39,135 nt of DNA from Opitutus sp. GAS368 (lineage in GTDB: Bacteria > Verrucomicrobiota > Verrucomicrobiia > Opitutales > Opitutaceae), in NCBI GenBank assembly GCA_945871005.1, contig CAMBUJ010000010.1:1-39135 (forward strand), given 5' to 3'. The stretch's first letter is position 1. The number at the start of each line of letters is the position of its first letter. The translations under genes and the position numbers were made by a program. Under the pieces are notes generated by a model, which saw only the letters and a program-made list of their open reading frames with translations, had not been told where the DNA came from and searched no databases. This document shows, piece after piece, positions 1 to 13,212 of the stretch.

Positions 1-46
1 CCTTGATCGTAAGGTCGTGGGGGTTCGAGTCCCCCCCCGGGCACCA
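1..46 (+). tRNA. 3' part of a tRNA-Leu-like gene (5' part outside the window); left boundary of the integrative element
   Basis: Variable-arm hairpin (GATC/GGTC), T-arm GGGGG-TTCGAGT-CCCCC, acceptor CCCGGGC, A, CCA. Aligns without gaps to 7653-7698 (41/46 identical). Confidence 0.8.
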
Positions 47-105
47 GCTTCAAGGGCAATAACTTACGGGAGTTAAGTGGGCTGTTTCAGGGATCAGTGA
101 AATGA

Positions 106-462
106 TCAGGTGTCCCCTTGGTGTCCCCTTTTTTCACTCCACCTTTTCCCGAGTTCGGGCCGATGGTGTCGGTTAAGTCGATGTGATCGGGCCTCGCGGA
201 TCGCGGAGGCAGTGAGCTTGCCGCCGGTCGCTTCGACTGCGCGCTGCACCACCTCTTCGCGGCGGGCGGGTTCGACTCGGGATAGCTCGCGGGCTTGGCG
301 TTCGGACGTGATAGCTGATTTGTCCCCCATGGGGGACACGACCTCGGCGGCATCCATCAGCCGGTATGCCTGTGACTTCTTCATGTTCCACCGGCTGATG
401 CAGTAGTCCTCAAACGTGCCGTGGGTGGCGCGGTACAGCTTGCCCTCGCGGATCGCGGATAG
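106..462 (-). pseudogene. 5'-truncated phage/plasmid-type DNA-binding-like protein
   Basis: The frame of the 92-aa ORF stays open upstream of its ATG: LSAIREGKLYRATHGTFEDYCISRWNMKKSQAYRLMDAAEVV..., until an in-frame TAG at 463-465. The conserved-looking block starts without an initiation codon. Confidence 0.5.
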
Positions 463-669
463 CTACCGGCTGATGCCAATATATTTCCCCTTGGCGTCGT
501 AGTGCATCACCTCGGGCTTGCCGGTGGCGGCGTTGGTGCGGACCTCATCGCGGCCAGCGTAGCGTCCGGCGGCGTCGGTGCGGTGAGTGGTCGGGATCGG
601 GGTGGGCGTGATGCCTGGCGAAGCGCAACCAGCGAGCAGCAGCAGGGCGAAGAAGGGAATGCGGCGCAT
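463..669 (-). CDS. Small putative lipoprotein
   Basis: MRRIPFFALLLLAGCASPG: signal peptide plus LAGC lipobox; ORF open to TAG at 463-465. Confidence 0.6.
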   Translation of the reverse strand: MRRIPFFALLLLAGCASPGITPTPIPTTHRTDAAGRYAGRDEVRTNAATGKPEVMHYDAKGKYIGISR

Positions 670-791
670 GGTGAACCGATGGCAGAGCAGCCGGCGAATG
701 GACACGAAAAAGCCCGCCCCCCATCAAAGAGGCGGGCTACTGCGCGCAAAACCGGCCGCTCCCATGAAAGAAAAGCGGCCGGAAAGTAAAA

Positions 792-1736
792 TCAGGCCGC
801 GCGCTTGGCCTTGGTGGTGATCGTGACGCCTTGAGCGGTGGCGAGTTCGGCGCGTGCCTGGACAAGCAACGGTTCGACCTCGGCCAGCCGGGCGGCGGCG
901 TTGTGGTAGGTGGCGGCCATGACTTCGACTGGTAGGTCCAGCGCCCGGGTGGGGTTTTCCCCGCCTAGGAAGACCGCGCCATGCAGACCGATTAACGAAT
1001 GGGATGCGAACCGCATGAACAGACCGCTTCCTTGAAATAGCTTCCGGCGGTGCGGCTCAGCGAGTTCGAGGGCGGCGATACGGATTCCAAAAATATCGAA
1101 AGCGATTTCGGCCAGCTCATGGATCGCGGCGTTTGCGGCTTCGATCTTCGAGAGCGTTTCCTTACTGGCCTCCAGCAAGTGGCAGGCAAGCGGGTATCCC
1201 TCGCGCGCGTCGTGGGCCTTCAGGGTGTCTTCGGCGGCTTTGACGGCATCGCCAAGGGCGATGCGCTCAAGGATAGCAGTTTCCCCGATGACGGCGCGCG
1301 CGTAGAATTTCAGGCCGTCTTTGAACCCACTCAGGGCCTTGAAGTCGGCTGGCATGGCTCGATCGCGTGCGGCTTCGAGGTCGGCGACGATGGCGCGGCG
1401 CTTGGCGATGAACTCCCACGCCTTGGCGAAGGAAACGGGCAGGCCCTTGAATGATTCGGGCAGTGGCGCGGGCTTGGCTCGCTCAGGGGCGGCGGGCTTC
1501 GCTGGGGCGTCGGCAGCGGGAACCAGTTGGCCGTCGTTACCGACGCGCCCGATGCGCTCGGCGGTGCCGCCTGCGACCAAATCGCGGGCGTCGGCCTCGG
1601 TCATATCGAGGACAGAACCGGCGGCGGTGTGCTGGGTGTCCAGTTTCCCGGCGGGGCGGGCCATGGTGGCGGAGAGGATTTTAACGCGGACGATTTTCTC
1701 GGCGCGGGTGGGTTTGATGAAATCGAGGAAGGACAT
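792..1736 (-). CDS. Hypothetical protein (element cargo)
   Basis: 314-aa ORF MSFLDFIKPTRAEKIVRVKIL...; consistent with the minus-strand gene run. Confidence 0.6.
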   Translation of the reverse strand: MSFLDFIKPTRAEKIVRVKILSATMARPAGKLDTQHTAAGSVLDMTEADARDLVAGGTAERIGRVGNDGQLVPAADAPAKPAAPERAKPAPLPESFKGLPVSFAKAWEFIAKRRAIVADLEAARDRAMPADFKALSGFKDGLKFYARAVIGETAILERIALGDAVKAAEDTLKAHDAREGYPLACHLLEASKETLSKIEAANAAIHELAEIAFDIFGIRIAALELAEPHRRKLFQGSGLFMRFASHSLIGLHGAVFLGGENPTRALDLPVEVMAATYHNAAARLAEVEPLLVQARAELATAQGVTITTKAKRAA

Positions 1737-1759
1737 GGGTGGCGGGTTCTCGGCTGGAT

Positions 1760-2059
1760 TTACTGGCGGGCGAATTGGATGCCGCTGCGGCCGTCGGTTT
1801 CGCCACTGGCGGAGCGGGTGACTCCGGGCGCGCGGGCATTTACGCGGTGCAGGCCGTTCTTGGCGGCGCGCGTCTCGGCGTCGGTGGTATCGACCGCGGC
1901 GCGAACGAGGGCGGGCGAAAATAGGGGCTCACCCGAGCCGGAGCGGCCAGAGGGTGCGATACTGAAGGAACGGAAAAGCGCCTCGGCAGAAGCGCGAAGG
2001 GCTACGGGTAGGGCGGCGACGATTTGGCCGCGTGATTGGTGGGTGGTTGCCATGCCCAA
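1760..2059 (-). CDS. Hypothetical protein
   Basis: 99-aa ORF in the same strand run; no recognised domain. Confidence 0.4.
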   Translation of the reverse strand: MGMATTHQSRGQIVAALPVALRASAEALFRSFSIAPSGRSGSGEPLFSPALVRAAVDTTDAETRAAKNGLHRVNARAPGVTRSASGETDGRSGIQFARQ

Positions 2060-2062
2060 AAT

Positions 2063-2320
2063 TTACCCGCCCCACGGCCGGCCGCCACTCGGCGACGCGC
2101 CCGATGAGCCGGACGCGGACAAACCTTTTGAGCGGGTCGCATAAAAGACGGCGGCGTCCACGTCGGCCACCATGTAAGTCTTGGCTCCCAGGCGAACCGC
2201 TGGGAGTTGGCCGCTGTGAATCAGGCGGAGAATCGTTTTCGCCGAGCATCCCCAGAGGACGGCAAGGTCGGCGTGGTGGCGGCCACGGGGCGGGCGGGCG
2301 TCGGGTTGGATGGTGTTCAT
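2063..2320 (-). CDS. Helix-turn-helix (excisionase/MerR-like) protein
   Basis: MNTIQPDARPPRGRHHADLAVLWGCSAKTILRLIHSGQLPAVRLGAKTYMVADVDAAVFY: winged-HTH Xis-like pattern. Confidence 0.65.
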   Translation of the reverse strand: MNTIQPDARPPRGRHHADLAVLWGCSAKTILRLIHSGQLPAVRLGAKTYMVADVDAAVFYATRSKGLSASGSSGASPSGGRPWGG

Positions 2321-2682
2321 AAAAGGGGAATCGGTTGCAGTCGGTGTTTCAGCCACTCGCGGGACTCGGTGCAGGTGTTGGGCTGGGGAGGCGTGGGGAC
2401 GTTGCGAAATGGCTTCCAGCGTGGGTTGGCGGCCAACCAAGCCACGGCATCGGCTGGGCGGATATATAGACGCCGGGCCACCGGCATCCCGTCGGCTAGC
2501 ATGGCGCGTCTCAGCTTGTGGACGGCGCGGGGTTGCCAGACGTGATGTTTCATCAGCCGGGACCGGCCGCGAAGGATGCCGGTGGCGTTGAACCAGGCAG
2601 CGACCTCGGCGGGTGATGCGAACCGCTGGGGATCAGGAAGCGAGCCGGTGCCGTGTTTTGCGGTGATTTGCGGTGAATCCAT
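2317..2682 (-). CDS. Hypothetical protein, possibly HTH-like
   Basis: 121-aa ORF MDSPQITAKHGTGSLPDPQRFASPAEVAAWFNATGI...; 4-bp overlap with the downstream HTH gene. Confidence 0.55.
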   Translation of the reverse strand: MDSPQITAKHGTGSLPDPQRFASPAEVAAWFNATGILRGRSRLMKHHVWQPRAVHKLRRAMLADGMPVARRLYIRPADAVAWLAANPRWKPFRNVPTPPQPNTCTESREWLKHRLQPIPLL

Positions 2683-2958
2683 GTGATTTTGCCTAGGTAG
2701 GGGGGGGGGGAGTGCCCCTATCGAAACTCCCTTTGTTTCTGCGGAAAGACCAGGTGCGGTCTTTGTTTGTTAAGCGGTAGACTTTCACCCTCCCCCCGGG
2801 GTTGGGGGCTTGGCCTGGGTGGATTTGGTGAGTGGGTGGTGGTGGATCTTGGATTACCCGGTGCAGCCCCTTCCCCCGTCCCCTTTGCGCCTCTATATAG
2901 GCGCGACGGGGGACGGGGAAAGGTGTGGGGGAACCCCGTCACGGGGTTAAATACGGGG

Positions 2959-4368
2959 TTAGACGGGGGACGGGGGAACCATTTCCCATTGTCCTCTAAC
3001 CCCATTGCTTTTAATGACTTTGCAATCAACCATTGCTTGCTTGCGGTCTTCAGCCGCGCTCGGGCCTATGTCATGGATTAACCCCAGCGCGTTGAGTATT
3101 TCTGAAGTCTTGCAGACGGGGTTCGTTTCGGGGTTCAAGGCGTTGCCCCAGACATGATCCCAAACGGCCTCGGCATCGGCAAAAGCCTTGGCCTTCTCCC
3201 TGTGTTCCTGGACTTCTTCTTTGCTCGCCACCGAGACGTGCATCTTGGCTTCATCGCTATAGGCCCAGCGGGGGGCGTTCTTCTTTAGAATCGGCGCGCC
3301 TCTGTTCTTGGTGCTGAACACCACTGTCACCTCGCTGGAATCCTTTTCAAGGGTGAGGTTAAACGCGGCCTTGCGGGCGAGTTGCTTGCCGAGGTGACCA
3401 CGGGCGGAGGCGTCGGCGTCCTTGCCTTCGTTGCGATGGATCACGGCGATGATCGGGCAAGCGGCCTCGCGGGCGTGCCCGTGCACCTCACGAACCAACT
3501 CTTGCGACTCGCTCAGGTCGTTGGGGTCGTCGCACAAGTCGGCAATGCCGTCGATGACGACGAACCAGACCGGAACCCCTTCGGCTTTTAAGCCTGCCAG
3601 CTTGGCCGTGATCATCGCCCGGATCTCGCCGGGGGCCGCGCCTACCAGGTTGTAGGGCAGCACCCAATCGGGGAGGACCGGCACGCCAGCACGGCGGGCG
3701 GCACGCTGGGCAAGGTCGAATTGGTCCGCCTCCGATTGCTCGGTATCGAATAGCAAGACGATGCCGTTCGTGGGGCGCGCGCCTGCGACGATGCCGAGGC
3801 AGTCCGCCGGCGTGGTGATGCCCTCGCCACTAACAACGGCGGCGGCGATGATAGCGCCACACAATGCAGACTTGCCGCTTTTGGCCGGTGCCAGGATCGC
3901 GGTGATATCGCCACGGGTTGCGACCGGCACGCCAGCGCAGAGCAGCACGGGCTCAGGCCTTGGCGGTGGTGCGGATAAATTGAGGCGGCGGGCCTCGAGT
4001 GCTTCAACGCCTGGGCCTTTCTTGAATTTCTTGGGCAGCGTCTCTTTCCATTTATCGACCTTGTCGAAGCCCATCACGGCGAGGGCTTGCAGATAAACAT
4101 TCTGGCGGGCGGTAAAGTATTTAATCCCGCTCGAGCCCTTGCAGAGGTATTTGATTCCTACGTCCATCACCTCTTCGTAGGTGGTGGTAGATTTTAGCGC
4201 CTGCCACGTCTTACGGTGTTCGTAATCCTCAAATGCCAGGGCGGGCAGGTCCCGGCACTGGTTCAAGTAATCCATATCCATGTCCGAAACGATATCCCCT
4301 AGAAAAAGCTCCTCCCAATCGACCCCCGCTGGTTTCTTCAGCAGTTCGTTTAATTTGTCGGCTCTCAT
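2959..4368 (-). CDS. RepA/AAA_25-type RecA-fold ATPase
   Basis: Walker A-like ILAPAKSGKSALCGAII, GIVLLFDTEQSEADQFDLAQRAARRAG, Walker B-like WFVVIDGIADLCDDPND, AVIHRNEG: RepA-family helicase pattern. Confidence 0.8.
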   Translation of the reverse strand: MRADKLNELLKKPAGVDWEELFLGDIVSDMDMDYLNQCRDLPALAFEDYEHRKTWQALKSTTTYEEVMDVGIKYLCKGSSGIKYFTARQNVYLQALAVMGFDKVDKWKETLPKKFKKGPGVEALEARRLNLSAPPPRPEPVLLCAGVPVATRGDITAILAPAKSGKSALCGAIIAAAVVSGEGITTPADCLGIVAGARPTNGIVLLFDTEQSEADQFDLAQRAARRAGVPVLPDWVLPYNLVGAAPGEIRAMITAKLAGLKAEGVPVWFVVIDGIADLCDDPNDLSESQELVREVHGHAREAACPIIAVIHRNEGKDADASARGHLGKQLARKAAFNLTLEKDSSEVTVVFSTKNRGAPILKKNAPRWAYSDEAKMHVSVASKEEVQEHREKAKAFADAEAVWDHVWGNALNPETNPVCKTSEILNALGLIHDIGPSAAEDRKQAMVDCKVIKSNGVRGQWEMVPPSPV

Positions 4369-4628
4369 TTGGCATGGGTACCTCCGTTTTGGATGGTGTT
4401 GATGGCTTCGCGGACGCGTTTGATTTCGGCCAATTTTAAGACGCGGGCGACGGGGTCTAAATCGTCGTGATTAAACTGATGGCAAAGATCGTCGAAGCGC
4501 TCGCGTAGGGCTTCGACGGTTACGCCTTGACCGGAGCAGTCGGCGCTCACAGTCTGCAGTTCTTCTTTTTTCTTCAGCTCTGAGTTTAGCCACTCAGGGT
4601 TTTTTCGTTTTTCTAGGTCGGGCTTCAT
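4365..4628 (-). CDS. Hypothetical protein
   Basis: 87-aa ORF, 4-bp ATGA-type overlap with the ATPase gene. Confidence 0.55.
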   Translation of the reverse strand: MKPDLEKRKNPEWLNSELKKKEELQTVSADCSGQGVTVEALRERFDDLCHQFNHDDLDPVARVLKLAEIKRVREAINTIQNGGTHAK

Positions 4629-4843
4629 GGTGTTTTTTTCGTAGCGGCGGACATGGATTTTTCGTGGGTGCAGTAGGATCGAAGGGCGGATGCGTGACGC
4701 ATTTTCGCCAGCTCGGTGTCTTCGGGATTCGCCAGGGCTAGGCGCTTGGCGGCGGTCAGTAGCTCGTGCTCAAGAAACCGGCGCTTGCGCAGGGCCAGCA
4801 CGGCGGAGCGGTGGGCTTCATTCTTGAATTGGTGGGTAATCAC
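4625..4843 (-). CDS. Hypothetical protein
   Basis: 72-aa ORF, overlaps neighbours by 4 bp. Confidence 0.5.
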   Translation of the reverse strand: MITHQFKNEAHRSAVLALRKRRFLEHELLTAAKRLALANPEDTELAKMRHASALRSYCTHEKSMSAATKKTP

Positions 4844-5115
4844 TGGGCGGCGGACCCTCCCTTGGTTGAGGATTTGTGGGCGGGCCAGTCTGCCAGCGCC
4901 TGCTCGATTGCTTCCTCGATGCAGTTGGCCGCCTCACGTTTAGAGCCGCGCTTAAGGTCGATTTCGTCGTCCAGCAGTTTCTGGCGGACGTTTTCGGCGA
5001 TGTACCGCAGTTGGTCTTCGGACTCGGGGAAGCTCCCAGCGGGTTGGCGGGCCTTCCAATCGCGGTAAAAGTTGGGGCCGACCGGCTCCCATTCGGGCTT
5101 GGTGGTGGTGTCCAT
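4840..5115 (-). CDS. Hypothetical protein
   Basis: 91-aa ORF MDTTTKPEWEPVGPNFYRDWKARQP..., translationally coupled. Confidence 0.55.
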   Translation of the reverse strand: MDTTTKPEWEPVGPNFYRDWKARQPAGSFPESEDQLRYIAENVRQKLLDDEIDLKRGSKREAANCIEEAIEQALADWPAHKSSTKGGSAAQ

Positions 5116-5121
5116 GGTGCT

Positions 5122-5397
5122 TCAGTTCTTCAGCCAAGCTGTGATCTCGGGGAAATCCTTCTGGTTGAGAAAACACGTCGCTCCCTCGTCGCATAGGAAG
5201 GCGCAGCTCGATACCAGGGCGGCGCGGGTGTAGTCTTCGACGGTCATGTCGTGTTGGTCGGCGATGGCCGAGAGCGCGGCGGCGAGGTTGCCGGTGATCT
5301 CGACGGAGAACGGGGCGGCGGGCGGCACGTCGAACGCGGTGATCGGGCATTCCTCGGTGAGGTTGGACGGGGTGGTGGTGGTGGTGGCGGTGCTCAT
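5122..5397 (-). CDS. Hypothetical protein
   Basis: 91-aa ORF MSTATTTTTPSNLTEECPITAFDVPPAAPFSVEI... in the same strand run. Confidence 0.5.
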   Translation of the reverse strand: MSTATTTTTPSNLTEECPITAFDVPPAAPFSVEITGNLAAALSAIADQHDMTVEDYTRAALVSSCAFLCDEGATCFLNQKDFPEITAWLKN

Positions 5398-5406
5398 GGT
5401 CGTGGC

Positions 5407-5613
5407 TCAGGCGGCTTTGCGGCCGTTGATGAACGCGTGCACCGAGGCTTCGCTGTACCGATAGCAACGGGCGTTGAATTTAACGGCACGGATAAGCCCC
5501 TTGCGGGCATAGGCGCGGATAACGTGGCCGGTGGCGCATTTGGAGCCGAGGAGGGCGGAAACCTCCTGGCGGGTAAGAAGTCGGTCGGTGTGGGTCGTGG
5601 TGGTCATAATCAT
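5407..5613 (-). CDS. HTH (excisionase-like) DNA-binding protein
   Basis: MIMTTTTHTDRLLTRQEVSALLGSKCATGHVIRAYARKGLIRAVKFNARCYRYSEASVHAFI: Xis/AlpA-like HTH pattern. Confidence 0.65.
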   Translation of the reverse strand: MIMTTTTHTDRLLTRQEVSALLGSKCATGHVIRAYARKGLIRAVKFNARCYRYSEASVHAFINGRKAA

Positions 5614-5700
5614 GGTTTCGGTCGTTTTGGTTTTTATTGGTAATGGCTGGGAAAATCTCAGCCGTGATGCGAAACGATGCAATAAGAGTCATTAAAAGCA

Positions 5701-6168
5701 ATGGAAAACTGCATCGAAGTGCATCAGCTTACTCAAATGGCACTTACACTGAGGCTTCCAGAGGATGACGAGAAACAGCTTAAACTGTTGGCTGAGAGCG
5801 TCGGACTGATGCCGATTGATCTTGTCAGAGCGGCGGTCAAGGGCCTGCTAATTGCTGCGAAATCGAACAAGGGGAAAGTCGAGTTGCCCCTACACGTCCG
5901 AACAAAGGAAGAGGAAGCGGCCTGGGCGCAGATTTGCAGGGAGCTTACGCACGTCGCGAATCAAATCCCCCCCGACGAATATCTAGTGGGTAGTTTTCTC
6001 CACCTTGTTGACCTAATGGACACTTATGCAGCCACTGCATCCATGCCGCAAAAAGTTGAAAAAAGTGAATGGAACGATGCTGACCTAAATTGCCCTGAAA
6101 GTTTCGCGGCATACAAAGCTAGGCAGGACGCCCCTATGCCGCGCGCCAAAAAAAAGCCGACCAAGTGA
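5701..6168 (+). CDS. Ribbon-helix-helix-like N-terminus, hypothetical regulator; only clear plus-strand gene in the element
   Basis: 155-aa ORF with MALTLRLPEDDEKQLKLLAESVGLMPIDLVRAAVKGLL (RHH-like) and a Lys-rich C-terminus; divergent from 5407..5613. Confidence 0.6.
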   Translation: MENCIEVHQLTQMALTLRLPEDDEKQLKLLAESVGLMPIDLVRAAVKGLLIAAKSNKGKVELPLHVRTKEEEAAWAQICRELTHVANQIPPDEYLVGSFLHLVDLMDTYAATASMPQKVEKSEWNDADLNCPESFAAYKARQDAPMPRAKKKPTK

Positions 6169-6179
6169 TCGGTCGGCTC
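6156..6179 (+). terminator. Stem-loop overlapping the end of the plus-strand RHH-like gene
   Basis: GCCGACC...GGTCGGC inverted repeat around the stop codon; weak T-run. Confidence 0.35.
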
Positions 6180-6219
6180 GGTGGTGATGGTGTCCCCAAT
6201 TGGGGACAGCGGTACGCGC

Positions 6220-7557
6220 TTACTTCTTCTTAGGCTTGGCGGTCAAATCCACCGTAGCGGCGCGCTTGGCGACGTAGCTTGCGGCGGTGGTGGCGATGGT
6301 GGAGTGGCCTAGGTGCTGGCGTGCTGCCTCCAGGCCGAACGATGCGTAAATGAAGGAGCCGGACAGCTTGCGCAGGGCATGAAGGGGAGTGAGGTCTAAA
6401 AGCCCCTGTGCCTTCAGCCAGGCGGACAGCGTGGGCCATGCCTCGGCGCGGTACTCGTAGCCCTTGGAGACGGGCTTGGGCGGTGTGCCGGTCAGGACAT
6501 AGACCGCTTTCGGATTGGCCTTCCTGCGGGCTTTAAGGCGCTCCACCACGTCGGCAGGTAGCGGCACGGTGCGGTGAGATTCCCGGGACTTCGGGCGAAA
6601 GGTCGGGGTCACGTCGATTCGCACGGTCCCCACCTTCAGATCAACGTGTGCCCAGGGCAGCGAGTCGGCCTCACCCCGGCGCAGGCCAGCGCAGAGCAGC
6701 AGGTCGAAGGCGGTTCGAGTATCGGGATCGAGGTCGGAGGCGGCGGCGTAGAGCTTGCGCGGATCGAGGTCACACTCGAAGCGGCGGGTGGTAGCGGCGG
6801 CGGTGATTCCCTTGAACGGCAGCTCGGCGGGGAGGATGATCGTTTTACCGACCTGTTCGACGATCTCAGCCGAGAACAGGCTGCGGGCGTCCCGCAGATG
6901 AGATGCCAGGGTGTGGGCGCGGCGGTCCTTGGCAGTCTCGCCACCCGATGCCAGGGCGGCGTCGAGCTGGATCTTCTGCCAGGCCTTGACGGCCATGGGC
7001 GTGACCCTATCGAGCCGGACGGCCTCAATCTTCGCGTGCCAGGCTGCGCGGTCAGGGTGACTCTCTGAATCCTTCACGATACCAAGGACACCGGCCACCA
7101 CGCGGCGCAAAGATGCTTCATATTCGGCGAGGGTGGTAGAGCGTACTGTGGAGATGGCTTTTGCGGCTTCCAGATACTCGGCGACGGTGCAGACACGATC
7201 GGGGCGTTTATCGGGCCGCAAATCGGCAAGGACGGCGGCTAGGCCCTGCACCTGCACCCGCTGCCAGAGGTCGCGGGCCTTCGACGCGGCCAATCCACGG
7301 TTGGCCGTATCGAGGCAAAACCACGCATCCCGACCACCTTCTTTTAACCGCAGGTAAAGCTCGGGCGTCTCGGTGCCGTCCTTGAGGGTGCGGGGCCGAA
7401 CGCGGTCTTTCCAGTAGGCCACCTCGGACTTGGCTGCCCGCGTTTTTTTGGGGCCAGCGAGGGCAGCGGGAAAAGGGGACACCTCGGCCAGGTGTCCCCT
7501 TAGTGTCCCCTTTTTTTCATTCTCAAGGCTGTTTTGGGCTTCGCTTGTGTTCTTCAT
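6220..7557 (-). CDS. int: Tyrosine recombinase / integrase
   Basis: Catalytic-box pattern: LLCAGLRRGEADSLPW (R), PLHALRKLSGSF (HxxR), HLGHSTIATTAASY (H...Y). Start assigned at MKNTSEAQN; an upstream ATG at 7608 is possible. Confidence 0.92.
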   Translation of the reverse strand: MKNTSEAQNSLENEKKGTLRGHLAEVSPFPAALAGPKKTRAAKSEVAYWKDRVRPRTLKDGTETPELYLRLKEGGRDAWFCLDTANRGLAASKARDLWQRVQVQGLAAVLADLRPDKRPDRVCTVAEYLEAAKAISTVRSTTLAEYEASLRRVVAGVLGIVKDSESHPDRAAWHAKIEAVRLDRVTPMAVKAWQKIQLDAALASGGETAKDRRAHTLASHLRDARSLFSAEIVEQVGKTIILPAELPFKGITAAATTRRFECDLDPRKLYAAASDLDPDTRTAFDLLLCAGLRRGEADSLPWAHVDLKVGTVRIDVTPTFRPKSRESHRTVPLPADVVERLKARRKANPKAVYVLTGTPPKPVSKGYEYRAEAWPTLSAWLKAQGLLDLTPLHALRKLSGSFIYASFGLEAARQHLGHSTIATTAASYVAKRAATVDLTAKPKKK

Positions 7558-7636
7558 GGTGTGCCGTAAATCGCTTGTAAGCAGTAGAAAGGCAGGGTGC
7601 TTACGCAATACAAGCGAACTTGTGGTAAATTCGCAA

Positions 7637-7698
7637 GAAAGGACTTAAAATCCCTTGTTCGAAAGGACGTGCGGGTTCGAGTCCCGCCCCGGGCACCA
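7637..7698 (+). repeat. tRNA-Leu(UAA)-like remnant, right attachment-site copy
   Basis: CTTAAAA anticodon loop, variable arm GTTC/GGAC, T-arm GCGGG-TTCGAGT-CCCGC, CCCGGGCACCA. D-arm-like sequence extends upstream, but no 5' acceptor strand (GCCCGGG) was found. Confidence 0.75.
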
Positions 7699-8053
7699 GG
7701 CAGAAAGCGGTAGGAATGCACCGAGCCCAAGGGTGTTGCCGCAATCGACCGGACCGCGCCGCCCCAAAGTCCCCCCCCGGTGTTAAAAAACATCCCGCGG
7801 GTTGGCACGCCGGCTGCATTATTGACTGCGTTCAGCCCAACACCGCTGCCCGCCATGCAACCCACCACCCGCCCTCGCCGATCCGCCCGTCTCCTTGCCA
7901 AGAGCCAAACGACCGGTGGGCAACAACCCCATACTAACTCGAAAGACATCCGCTAAAATCAAAGGCGAATGACCCGATCCTAACGAGCTCCCTGCTCCGC
8001 CGCTCGGTCACCCAACCCAACCACACCTCCTCATTCTTTTCCACCGCTTCTGT

Positions 8054-8458
8054 ATGAACACGCTCACTCCTCTGCTCAGCACCGTTAGTCGCCGCACCAC
8101 CACCGCCCCGGTTCCCACCGTGACGGTGCGCAAGCCGCACTACGACTGCCAAGAGCAGGAGTCCGCCTGCGAAATCATCGTCTATGTGCCGGGCGTGGAG
8201 TCGGCGGGCGTTGAAATCACCTCCAACGGCACCGACCTGCTGATCAACGCCCGCAAGCACCACTACGTGAGGGTTAATTTTGGGGCCCTTAATCTCGAGG
8301 GTGTCCAGCATGACTACCAGCTGAGCCTGCGCCTCGGCCGGAGCCTCGATTACGCCGCCCTGCAGGCCGAATTCCATCAGGGCGTGTTGACCCTGAGAAT
8401 CCCCAAGAAACAGCCCCCCAATGTGGTGGCCCTGCCCAGTTTTTCCCGGGCCGCCTGA
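8054..8458 (+). CDS. Hsp20/alpha-crystallin-family small heat-shock protein
   Basis: YDCQEQESACEIIVYVPGVESAGVEITSNGTDLLINARK...EFHQGVLTLRIPKKQ: alpha-crystallin-domain pattern. Confidence 0.8.
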   Translation: MNTLTPLLSTVSRRTTTAPVPTVTVRKPHYDCQEQESACEIIVYVPGVESAGVEITSNGTDLLINARKHHYVRVNFGALNLEGVQHDYQLSLRLGRSLDYAALQAEFHQGVLTLRIPKKQPPNVVALPSFSRAA

Positions 8459-8517
8459 GCCGCTCCCGCCTTGGGGTTGCACCCCCACCCGTGACGCCGT
8501 GGGTTGATCACCCCGCG

Positions 8518-8558
8518 CCTGCCCGTCCGCCCCAGCGGACGGGCTTTTTTTGGTTTTT
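8518..8558 (+). terminator. Rho-independent terminator
   Basis: GCCCGTCCGCCCCAGCGGACGGGC followed by TTTTTTT. Confidence 0.8.
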
Positions 8559-8636
8559 TTGAGCGCAGCGACATTTTTCACTCAATTTTTCCGCCGACCG
8601 GGCCGATAGAGGGAGGTATTCCCCCCTACCCTGACC

Positions 8637-8840
8637 ATGATTTTGCACGGACACACGCCCCCCGCTCGCCCCGCCGTTTCGATTGAAGCCTCCGTTCCCT
8701 TTGACGTGCTTTGGGGCAAACCCCTGTTTCGCGCCCCCAACCTGCCCGCGCCAGTCAGCGGGGCGGCCGTAATTCCCTTCACCGCGCACCGCGTCACCGA
8801 ACCGCGCCGCATCCAAAACACTCCCCGGCGCTCCGCCTAG
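8637..8840 (+). CDS. Small hypothetical ORF
   Basis: 67-aa ORF MILHGHTPPARPAVSIEASVPFDVLWGKPLF...; no domain. Confidence 0.3.
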   Translation: MILHGHTPPARPAVSIEASVPFDVLWGKPLFRAPNLPAPVSGAAVIPFTAHRVTEPRRIQNTPRRSA

Positions 8841-9544
8841 TAGGTAGCCACCTGGATTTTCGCCGATCGAAATCGATTGTCTCGCGAAGAAGGGGGGTGG
8901 GCTCGAAGGAATAGGCCCGCACCGCTTTGCTTTGGTGCGTCTTCCAGCTTCGCGCCCGTCGACGAGCCCCCTTGGTAAGCTCGCAGTCAATACGTTGCGG
9001 CAGGAATAACGCGAAGGATGAACCTGAGTGAAAGTTGAGCGGAATTCAGGGCGCCTGTGGAGCAGAGAACCGGCAACGACGAACTCCGAGGGGCAAAATG
9101 GTGCGCGAATGGTTCGAATCCAGGCGCCTAAATGATGCCAGACCAAAACAGGTGGGGAAGCGGCGAGGCACTGAAGCAGGCCTTGATGGACCAGTCCGAC
9201 CTAGATGTGCCGGTTGATGGGCGCCGAGCTTGTGGCCGGACGGAGGCGCGACACCAAAGAGATTGGCGGTGGAGAAACGGGGATCCTAATGCACCGGTCT
9301 TCATCAGTGGTTAACCCATGCCGCCGCACCGGATCGCCACGGAATACCCTCCCTGATGAGACCCCATAATCACCGATTAAAACCCGCGCCCGAATTGCCT
9401 GGTTGGCGGGACGACTGTGTCGGGGCCCGCCTGGATGCCACACCCGGAGACCACCCACCGGTCAAATCCGTCAGCGGAGTTGACGCATCCGGCGGAGGTG
9501 ACACTTTCCCCCCGACCCGTCACTTTTAACCCAACTCAACACCC

Positions 9545-10177
<633 letters not shown>

Positions 10178-10211
10178 TTCCGTCCGCGCGTTTTTCCCCC
10201 GAAAAATCCGC

Positions 10212-10256
10212 CCACAAAAAAGCCGTCCCGCACTGAGCGGGACGGCTTTTTTTGTG
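10212..10256 (+). terminator. Rho-independent (possibly bidirectional) terminator
   Basis: AAAAAAGCCGTCCCGC ACTGA GCGGGACGGCTTTTTTT. Confidence 0.85.
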
Positions 10257-10279
10257 TATCCGTTGGCCGGATCCGCTCC

Positions 10280-11476
10280 TCAGCGCAACCAGGCACTCGC
10301 CTGGGAGGTCTGCTTGAGCTGGGCGGAACTCAACCGGGTGGTCTTGCCAGTCTCGGTGTCGAGCAGGCAGATGGTGCGTTTATTGGCGCTGCGCTCGGTG
10401 TAGATCAAGTGGCGACCGTCGGCCAACCAGGAGGGCTCCACCGCGTCGACGGGGGCCTTCGACACCTGCTTAGCCGGGGTCCGCTTAGCCATGTCGTAAA
10501 CGGCGATCTGGTAGCTGCTGCCGATACGCGTGGTGAAGGCGATCTTGTTGGGGTCGCCCGCGCTCCAGTCCGGCTCGGCGCAATAACCGCTGATGCTGGT
10601 GGGCACCCGCGACATGGTGCCGCCGCCCGCGGGCATGGTGTAAAGCTGCGGACCACCGGCGGCGTCGGAAGTGAAGATCAGCCGCGAGCTGTCCGGCGAC
10701 CAAGCCGGCGAAGCCTCGACGGAGGGCGTACGAGTGCGGCGGGCCACCCCGCGGCCCTGGGCGTTACTCACATAGATCTCGGGGTTGCCCTCGCCGGAGA
10801 GCACCAGCGCGACCTGCGAGCCGTTGGGGCTGAAGCGGGCGCCGCTGTTGGTGCCCTTGAAGCTCACGAAGGTCGTGCGCTGCAGGCTATTGAGGTCGAG
10901 CATGAAGATGTCGGGAAAGCCCGACTTGTAGAAGCTGGTGTAGAGGATCTTGCCGCCATCCGGCGACCAGCGGGGGGTGATCGCCTGGGCGTTATCCTTG
11001 GTGATCTGGCGCACCTCGCCGAAAAACAAGTCACCGGTGAACACCTCGGATTTGCCCGAGTACTCGCTGATGAAGGCGAGGCGGGAGGCGAAGAAGCCCT
11101 TCAGGCCAGTGACCGCGGTGACGGCTGCATCGGCTGCGCGGAAAAAGGCGTTGCGCGCGCTCGTGCCCTGGGCGACCTGGTTAAGAACCACCGCACCACC
11201 CTTGGTCACGGTGACCTGAACCTGGTTGGCCGCAACCGGAGCGAACTTGACGTCAAAGCTGCCGCTGGTGGGGACCAAGCGGATACGGCCATGGGCCTTG
11301 AAGGCGAGATTCGCCAGTTGGGTCAGCTCGGGGGTGGCCCCGGAGACGCTCACGGCGATGGTTTTCAGATCGGCGGAAATGACGACATCGCCGAGATTGC
11401 GGCTGGGGGTTTGGGCAAAAACCGAAACCGGCGCGAGAATCGCCAAGGCGACGAGAGTTCGAAGCAGAGATTTCAT
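10280..11476 (-). CDS. tolB: TolB-like beta-propeller periplasmic protein
   Basis: Signal peptide; WD40-like repeats (SPDGGKILYTSFYKSGFPDIFMLDL, SPNGSQVALVLSGEGNPEIYV, SPDSSRLIFTSDAAGGPQLYTM). Confidence 0.8.
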   Translation of the reverse strand: MKSLLRTLVALAILAPVSVFAQTPSRNLGDVVISADLKTIAVSVSGATPELTQLANLAFKAHGRIRLVPTSGSFDVKFAPVAANQVQVTVTKGGAVVLNQVAQGTSARNAFFRAADAAVTAVTGLKGFFASRLAFISEYSGKSEVFTGDLFFGEVRQITKDNAQAITPRWSPDGGKILYTSFYKSGFPDIFMLDLNSLQRTTFVSFKGTNSGARFSPNGSQVALVLSGEGNPEIYVSNAQGRGVARRTRTPSVEASPAWSPDSSRLIFTSDAAGGPQLYTMPAGGGTMSRVPTSISGYCAEPDWSAGDPNKIAFTTRIGSSYQIAVYDMAKRTPAKQVSKAPVDAVEPSWLADGRHLIYTERSANKRTICLLDTETGKTTRLSSAQLKQTSQASAWLR

Positions 11477-11595
11477 GACAGAAAAGGGAGACGTAATGTT
11501 ACGAGACGACAGGGCATTTCTATTTACAGCCCCGCCCGCTATAACAACGTAAAACCCTCCACGTTCCCATTTTTCCCGCTTTACCTATTTCTACT

Positions 11596-12678
11596 GTGAC
11601 TCCCGACGACATCAAAGAAGCCCTTAAGCAAGTGAAGTATCCCGGCTTTAGCCGTGACATCGTCTCCTTCGGACTGGTGCGCTCGGCCGCAATGGTCGGC
11701 GACACCATCAAGGTTTCGCTCTCCCTGACGACCTCCGATCACAAAATCCCCCTGCACCTCAAGCAGGAGGTGGACAAATGCCTGCGCGCCCTGCCCGGGG
11801 TGGCCGCCACGGTGATCGACATCGCCGTCGCTCCCGCGCGCACGCCGGCTGCTGGCGGGGGTAACCTCGGCGGCAACGCCGCGGCACCCAAGACGATCAA
11901 ATACGCCGTCGCCATCGCCTCGGGCAAAGGCGGGGTCGGCAAGAGCACCTTTGCGGTTAACCTCGCCTGCGCTCTCGCCCAGTTGCTCACCGCCCAGGGT
12001 CGCCCGGGCCGCGTCGGCCTGATGGACTGCGACATTTACGGACCCTCGGTGCCGCTGATGATGGGCATCGACGGTCCCCCCCAAGTCGAAGGCGACAACC
12101 TGCTGCCGCTGGAAAACCACGGGGTGAAAGTCATGAGCATGGGCTTCCTCGTCGACGACAACACCCCTGTGGTCTGGCGCGGACCGATGATCATGAAGAC
12201 GATCCAGCAATTCGTGCAAAACGTGAAATGGGGCGAGTTGGACATCCTCTTGGTCGATCTTCCCCCAGGCACCGGTGACGCCCAGCTCTCGTTGGTGCAA
12301 ACCCTGCCGCTCGACGGGGCCGTGCTCGTGACCACCCCGCAACCTGCCGCCACCAACGTGGCCCGCAAGGGCGGCCTGATGTTCCAAAAGGTTAACGTGC
12401 CCCTGCTCGGCGTCGCCGAAAACATGAGCTACTTCCTCGATCCCGCCGGCCTCAAACACCAGCTGTTTGGCGAAGGTGGCGGCCAGAAAACCGCCGATTC
12501 CCTCGGCACCGTGCTGCTCGGCCAGGTCCCCCTTGCCCCTGAAATCCGCGTCGGCGGCGATGCCGGTAAACCGATCGTAATCACCGCTCCCGACAGCCCG
12601 GCCGCCGGCATTTTCCGCGATATCGGCGACCAAATCCTCCTTCAGCTTTCCCGCAAGCCACTGACGACCAACGCCTGA
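11596..12678 (+). CDS. apbC: Mrp/NBP35-family Fe-S carrier P-loop ATPase
   Basis: Deviant Walker A SGKGGVGKSTFAVNLA, DCDIYGPSVPLMMG, LPPGTGDAQLSLVQ; GTG start. Confidence 0.95.
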   Translation: MTPDDIKEALKQVKYPGFSRDIVSFGLVRSAAMVGDTIKVSLSLTTSDHKIPLHLKQEVDKCLRALPGVAATVIDIAVAPARTPAAGGGNLGGNAAAPKTIKYAVAIASGKGGVGKSTFAVNLACALAQLLTAQGRPGRVGLMDCDIYGPSVPLMMGIDGPPQVEGDNLLPLENHGVKVMSMGFLVDDNTPVVWRGPMIMKTIQQFVQNVKWGELDILLVDLPPGTGDAQLSLVQTLPLDGAVLVTTPQPAATNVARKGGLMFQKVNVPLLGVAENMSYFLDPAGLKHQLFGEGGGQKTADSLGTVLLGQVPLAPEIRVGGDAGKPIVITAPDSPAAGIFRDIGDQILLQLSRKPLTTNA

Positions 12679-12912
12679 GATTGTAAAAAAACTGCGAAAC
12701 TCACGCAGGGAATTCGCTCAATTGACAGCCCTGCGCGAGCGGCTAGCTTGGACCACGCATGCCGCTTTTAACGACCGAGGTTCGGCGCTCAGGGTTAAAA
12801 TCCGCAGCAAACAAGCTTTCACACCATTTTATGCTTAAGAGACTTCAATCCGAGCCGATTTTAAGAGGCAGTGCTAGCTAGTCGGCCGATTGCACCCACC
12901 GCCATGGTCGCC

Positions 12913-13212
12913 ATGAATCCCTCCCCTTCCAAACCATCCGACTCCTCCTCGCGTGAGTTCGTGAAGCAATCGAGCCTGTATCAGGAATTTCTAGCTGAGC
13001 GGGAAGAGGTGCTACGGCATAAATGGCTGGAGTCCGAACGTCTTGGTCACGACATCGGCTTTGAGCGCGCCCTGCTTGATTGGATCCGCAAGCACCGCGA
13101 GAGCTGGCGGGTTGCCCGTCGTTCCCATGCTCCCAGCGGTCAAGGCGGCGTCGCCTCGATCCAATACGCCTCCTCCTCGTCTTCGTTCAAAATCGCCAGC
13201 TCGGCCAAGTAG
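12913..13212 (+). CDS. DUF4032-like small protein
   Basis: REFVKQSSLYQEFLAEREEVLRHKWLESERLGHDIGFERALLDWIRKHRESWRVARR resembles a recurrent small DUF4032-type family. Confidence 0.55.
   Translation: MNPSPSKPSDSSSREFVKQSSLYQEFLAEREEVLRHKWLESERLGHDIGFERALLDWIRKHRESWRVARRSHAPSGQGGVASIQYASSSSSFKIASSAK

Follow-up and report, generated by a model that had tools for sequence, protein, structure and literature searches.

An integrative element framed by tandem copies of a short word

The window analysed here is a stretch of 39,135 nucleotides from Opitutus sp. GAS368 (contig CAMBUJ010000010.1 of assembly GCA_945871005.1), of which approximately positions 1–7699 are occupied by a small tRNA-targeted integrative element seated in tRNA-Leu(taa). 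The window begins at the contig end within this tRNA, whose 3' part (1–46, forward strand) forms the attachment site at the end distal to the integrase gene (int); the intact 86-base tRNA-Leu(taa) is held by another contig of the assembly, C120, which overlaps window positions 1–149 at 100%. At the int side, a 59-bp repeat of the tRNA-Leu 3' part (7641–7699, forward strand; 91.5% identity to the C120 tRNA) constitutes the second attachment site. Between the two tRNA repeats lie a tyrosine integrase of 445 amino acids (6220–7557, reverse strand; Pfam Phage_integrase PF00589, E=9.8e-14), two small HTH_17 proteins, a DnaB/AAA-like ATPase and small unknown open reading frames (ORFs). The subject of this study is an 8-bp word, GTGTCCCC, found in tandem at both ends of the element, and its candidate role as a binding site of the integrase.

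The word occurs seven times in the window, always within the element, at 110, 121, 332 (reverse strand), 6190, 7475 (reverse strand), 7492 and 7503. Four of these copies make up two tandem pairs. The distal arm (107–134, forward strand) carries putative arm-type sites at 110–117 and 121–128, 11 bp apart from start to start, and the int-proximal arm (7492–7510, reverse strand) carries a second pair, which reads AAGGGGACACTAAGGGGACAC on the int strand. The surrounding 28-bp repeats (107–134 and 7489–7516) are 96% identical. The distal pair sits about 62 bp inside the tRNA-side end and the int-side pair about 130 bp inside the int-side end, where a third copy (7475–7482, forward strand), inverted relative to the pair, covers int codons 26–28. 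The initial annotation had reported these word positions, the near-identical 28-bp repeats and two perfect 18-bp palindromes, and all were located as described. Its picture of a motif network at both ends holds for the tandems, which do lie at the element ends; the right-hand copies fall within the int frame, and those at 332 and 6190 belong to the palindromes.

Shuffled versions of the 39-kb window contained on average 1.85 copies of GTGTCCCC and at most 6, and seven was never reached. Across the 3.48-Mb assembly the word is present 51 times compared to 53 for a reversed-word control, which rules out a generic chromosomal repeat. Seven of the 51 copies are concentrated in 7.65 kb, making the element about 75 times denser in the word than the remaining genome; the motif is thus far from equally dense in the chromosome, the outcome named in advance as fatal to the initial proposal. 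Two further copies at the C120 contig end represent the same left end, since C120 overlaps the window there. When the 11-bp tandem pattern was searched with up to two mismatches, only five places were found in the assembly, all at element ends: both ends of the present element, the C120 overlap, a sister element on contig C5 and a site beside a tRNA-Arg on contig C271.

The sister element (L008, complete at 5998–13150) lies beside tRNA-Met and encodes an integrase 75% identical to that of the window. Apart from the integrase, an HTH protein and the arm sites, the two elements have little in common. The layout is nevertheless the same, with an 11-bp pair at the tRNA-side end (6136/6147), matching the window pair in position and orientation, and, at the int side, an 11-bp pair plus one inverted copy (12913, the counterpart of 7475–7482). 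All five copies in L008 read GTGTACCC in place of GTGTCCCC, and GTGTCCCC was not found in the 20-kb L008 stretch. It is difficult to see how five separated sites could have changed in step if they were not all read by one protein.

On C271 (L009), a tRNA-Arg (3427–3503) is followed near the contig end by a mixed pair, GTGTACCC-TGA-GTGTCCCC, at 3589–3607. The site may be where a third element begins on its left side, or a relic; in either case its motif is intermediate.

The tandem layout is kept across the integrase family while the motif drifts

Integrase alignments were used to collect relatives, together with their flanks, from Genome Taxonomy Database (GTDB) genomes at the level of genus, family, order and phylum, as well as from named contigs (Opitutaceae, Geminisphaera and other Verrucomicrobiota). 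An exact 8-mer tandem at 11 bp was present in the int 5' region of 37 of 44 loci, compared to 0–7 of 44 loci for each other spacing between 8 and 40 bp and to a background of 1.5% at 11 bp. The repeated words differ among loci and include GGGGACAC, GGGTACAC, CCGGACAC, CCGGACAG, GTGGCCAAG, GTGGCGGAG, GTGTCCAAG, AGTACAG and others. Among six relatives found in IMG/VR, a close one (L187, with aspartate at integrase residue 77) carries GGGGACAC as expected, and four diverged ones with arginine at that residue contained no exact tandem.

The int-side motif recurs as an 11-bp tandem at the far end, 1.7–16 kb away and in the same orientation, in 16 elements. Searching the far end with each locus's own motif gave a match in 11 of the 25 testable loci; as a control, swapped, unrelated motifs matched in 18 of 510 comparisons, about half of which were the true site recovered through a similar motif. 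The far-end tandems adjoin a tRNA, with the tRNA repeat beginning within about 45–82 bp. At the int side, the distance from the tandem to the edge of the tRNA repeat is 129–136 bp in 14 elements that use eight tRNA types (tRNA-Met, Asn, Leu, Lys, His, Phe, Gln and Arg), and 129–130 bp by the same measure in the window. A tRNA T-arm signature precedes the tandem by 143–193 bp in 62 of 63 loci (about 158–167 bp in 37). In 14 loci the int-side pair is accompanied by a third copy, in either direct or inverted orientation. The architecture of the family is fixed and the motif drifts.

Across the 63 int loci, distances from the T-arm to the arm pair cluster near 160–166, 170–176 and 182–193 bp. The clusters hint at a step size close to one helical turn, although long variable arms may explain part of the pattern. 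We also observed a near-minimal relic of 1.7 kb (L032, on contig C22 of genome G011), in which the integrase is truncated while both GGGACAGA tandem pairs and the tRNA repeat are retained.

Motif class follows the arm-binding domain of the integrase

The window integrase comprises an arm-binding domain at about residues 46–112 (three strands and a helix) and a catalytic domain at 268–432, and the Pfam match, the fold and the invariant residues R293, K323, H393, R396 and Y428 place the latter in the tyrosine recombinase family. In an AlphaFold2 model, which is of high confidence over the arm-binding domain, strands at 54–57, 63–73 and 76–81 are followed by a helix at 87–104, and residues 1–33 are predicted to be disordered. 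The full-length model matches the Tn1549 and lambda integrases, Tn1549 Int being the best structural match.

Residue 77 comes directly after a basic position that is well conserved; it is D or E in integrases of elements with GGAC-type motifs and R in those with GGCC-type motifs. Motif class tracks this residue in 57 of 57 classed elements (26 D/E and one G versus 30 R). The single G, found in the sister element L008, is the only departure from D/E among GGAC-type elements and supplies the closest contrast available: D77 with GGGGAC in the window and in L023 versus G77 with GGGTAC in L008. Among 397 alignment columns, the six most informative about the motif are 77, 72, 78, 54, 56 and 68, all of them in the N-terminal arm-binding sheet; in the first set, the mean association for the core-binding/catalytic domains was lower (0.17 vs 0.25). 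In a tree restricted to the core-binding and catalytic domains, motif class switches 11 times, and the five independent pairs that fall on well-supported branches all agree with residue 77. This co-variation points to the integrase as the putative reader of the motif, and away from an excisionase or a repressor.

The int-side pair lies within the int gene

Codons 16–22 of the window int contain the int-side pair. Family-wide, the distance from the tandem to the codon of the conserved W49 takes 26 values, mostly between 42 and 183 nt (one degenerate gene aside), which are constant modulo 3 within each motif class with few exceptions: L031 (a degenerate integrase), L077, L086 and L170, whereas L069 fits its class if anchored on GGAC. 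An in-frame ATG is found upstream of the tandem in 45 of 52 loci. Together, the constant frame and the upstream ATG indicate that the tandem is usually translated; it lies upstream of the open frame in L075, L077, L078 and L175. Because a period of 11 bp does not divide into codons and the frames differ between classes, it is the DNA that is conserved, not the peptide.

Palindromes and other genes of the element

The palindrome TGTCCCCCATGGGGGACA (321–338) lies in codons for V-S-P-M-G-D-K, and TGTCCCCAATTGGGGACA (6191–6208) lies in the gap between int and the convergent ORF at 5701–6168. A search for TGTCCCC-N4-GGGGACA across 56 genomes returned only these two places and none in the other 55 genomes, and neither palindrome was found in the sister elements. 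Most of the symmetry at 321–338 arises because of the SPMGDK codons, and this palindrome is probably a coding coincidence. The initial annotation had joined the palindromes to the tandems in one network, an idea not borne out by these results; absence from sister elements and other genomes, together with the coding explanation, likewise rules out a conserved operator pair. As a terminator, the palindrome at 6191 is not convincing (hairpin z-score −0.83, no T-run).

The palindrome at 321–338 belongs to a remnant or small ORF of a repeat-domain protein (LYRATHGTFEDYC...SPMGDK...TSERQARELSRVEPARR; 106–462, reverse strand), the 3' end of which extends into the distal arm. A homologue at 60% identity is present in genome G389, and SPIGD or SPMGD recurs in further homologues; nothing was found for this protein in NCBIfam, Pfam or a search of phage records. 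A lipoprotein-like small ORF at 463–705, ending ...YDAKGKYIGISR, is common to the window and an element of genome G005 (L093 left end). In the latter the arm sites directly follow this ORF, whereas the window has about 330 bp extra between them, corresponding to the 106–462 remnant.

Of the two HTH_17 proteins, the small MerR-like DNA-binding protein adjoining int (5407–5613, reverse strand) matches HTH_17 and phrog_66 (excisionase and regulator), and is the best candidate for an excision factor. The second (2063–2320, reverse strand; HTH_17, E=2.5e-6) resembles the excisionase family, with a TIGR01764 match (E=1e-5) under the curated cut-off. The AAA_25/DnaB-like ATPase (2959–4368, reverse strand) may serve as cargo or in replication. 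The ribbon-helix-helix (RHH)-like ORF at 5701–6168 matches nothing in Pfam or NCBIfam and is without a relative among the loci compared.

A perfect 18-bp inverted repeat, CCATTGCTTTTAATGACT, at 3002–3019 and 5687–5704, links the 3' end of the ATPase gene with the start of the 5701 ORF and looks like a duplication junction. In addition, the tRNA-Leu 3' halves at 1–47 and 7653–7699 show compensatory T-stem differences (GGGGG/CCCCC vs GCGGG/CCCGC), which indicate that the element brought in a 3' half still able to fold; this half probably came from another tRNA-Leu allele.

Interpretation and alternative explanations

Taken together, we consider it very probable that the tyrosine integrase encoded by the element uses the GTGTCCCC tandem pairs as its arm-type (accessory) binding sites, because motif and arm-binding domain change together while the layout is conserved. 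The repeats flank the attachment core at the element ends, and one motif serves both ends and changes in concert. Positions, fixed spacing and layout, concerted change, coding overlap and co-variation can all be read from the DNA itself; from them we infer binding, a role in recombination and, as a by-product, self-repression of int. Of the roles that the initial annotation had offered, the integrase sites are thus favoured, and neither an Xis site nor an HTH or RHH operator is supported for the tandem copies. It had also pointed to conservation in related elements, where the tandem layout proved to be kept with a changed motif and the palindromes proved not to be kept.

Several observations weigh against this assignment. 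The exact tandem is missing in seven of the 44 loci, with near-tandems in several on inspection (L062, L033 and L095), and no far-end tandem was found within about 18 kb in 14 of the 25 loci with enough sequence. The isolated arm-binding domain has no Protein Data Bank (PDB) fold match at E≤0.001; against the arm-binding domains 3rmp and 3jtz it reaches E values of 1.3–1.6 only, in a type of search that has low power for small domains. Restricted to well-supported branches, the sign test gives p=0.06; with five pairs, 0.05 is out of reach. The phase and class of the motifs were hand-assigned, and a few odd motifs (L078, L088/L089/L163, L090, L169 and L172–L175) were excluded from the class test, among them that of L088, which combines Q77 with AGTACAG.

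The tandem copies could alternatively be sites of a recombination directionality factor, the HTH_17 protein at 5407 or at 2063, that bends the ends for excision. Such factors likewise bind short direct repeats near attachment sites, and homologues of the 5407 protein, with its phrog_66 excisionase match, adjoin int in several sister elements; since the motif follows the arm-binding sheet more than the remainder of the integrase, and the tandem is found throughout the integrase family, we judge this explanation improbable, although the tandems might partly overlap Xis sites. Still less probable are operators through which an HTH or RHH-like regulator of the element would control both ends. That the two perfect palindromes include the 7-bp core, and that they and the RHH-like ORF are seen only in this element among the loci compared, speaks in favour of such operators, but sister elements retain the tandems with neither palindromes nor a 5701 ORF, one palindrome is coding, and the palindrome pairing is without counterpart in 11 other two-ended elements.

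Least credible of all is conservation for an encoded peptide (KKGTLRGH near the integrase N-terminus). The region is translated, its distance to W49 is constant modulo 3 in each class, and a flanking peptide, NSLENEK, is common to the window and L008. With an 11-bp period, however, the two copies encode different residues, and the period together with the differing frames of the two motif classes rules out a repeated peptide; moreover, far-end copies lie outside int, four loci have the tandem ahead of the open frame, and the N-terminal residues are predicted to be disordered.

If the tandems are arm-type sites, the integrase would hold the 11-bp repeats of the two arms with its three-stranded N-terminal domain, leaving the catalytic domains to work on the core in the tRNA. 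The element's attachment site (attP), or the two junctions of the integrated form (attL/attR), would then be held in one complex that brings both ends together for integration and excision, with directionality probably supplied by an HTH_17 protein. Integrase bound in its own first codons may in addition hinder int transcription.

We further hypothesize, with the balance tipping only slightly in favour, that the family keeps a fixed attP geometry while the arm motif has switched class repeatedly, and that residue 77 (D/E versus R, helped by 72, 78, 54, 56 and 68) acts as the specificity switch. With dozens of integrase/site pairs and repeated switches, a recognition code for arm-binding domains can be proposed, testable by single-residue changes. 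If true, different motifs would limit cross-talk between co-resident elements in one cell. The constant spacing between a tRNA and an 11-bp tandem also provides a practical rule for locating exact element ends in Verrucomicrobiota genomes, where elements of this kind are little described in the literature searched. Finally, the site inside int would place one DNA stretch under constraint as code, as recombination site and possibly as self-repression site.

Comparison with known systems

Arm-type sites read by an N-terminal domain are an already known kind of site. In lambda, arm sites lie on both sides of the core and are read by an N-terminal beta-sheet domain of Int. The full-length model of the window integrase matches lambda Int (PDB 1z1b, 5j0n); the element differs from lambda in its sequence, its tRNA core and the position of the int-proximal arm in the 5' coding part of int, and neither IHF nor Xis sites were identified in it. 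Arm-binding domains have been described as three strands and a helix (PMC8138268), a fold that, together with the best structural match to Tn1549 Int, likens the window integrase to the Tn916/Tn1549 subgroup, a grouping made by model, not by phylogeny. In contrast to that likeness, identity is only 14–16%, and the hosts here are Verrucomicrobiota.

Two features are apparently undescribed, the location of the pair inside int throughout the family and the scale of the co-variation set: in the literature searched, with subscription journals outside coverage, no account was found of this Verrucomicrobiota family, or of arm sites lying within the 5' coding region of int across a whole family. In Cluster K mycobacteriophages, paired 11-bp repeats flank the attP core, and the arm-site sequence varies among relatives in step with residues 17 and 19 in the N-terminal part of the integrase (PMC3203893). 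Integrase arm-site specificity is known for a handful of phages, and in the literature searched only these few mycobacteriophages tied altered arm sites to integrase residues; here the tie extends over 57 classed elements and 11 switches, with one column separating all. One set is inverted in Cluster K (CrimD), and the sections of the source covered here do not describe sites inside int (PMC3203893); in the present element, both pairs are direct and the int-side pair is within the gene.

The integrase IntS of the tRNA-linked prophage KplE1 offers a parallel for this last feature, as its sites overlap the promoter of its own gene, which is autoregulated (PMC2951348). In both systems integrase sites, putative ones in the present element, overlap the control region of a tRNA-proximal integrase gene. 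In KplE1 the overlap is with the promoter, whereas here the pair lies within the coding region, and by analogy a similar self-repression of int would be expected.

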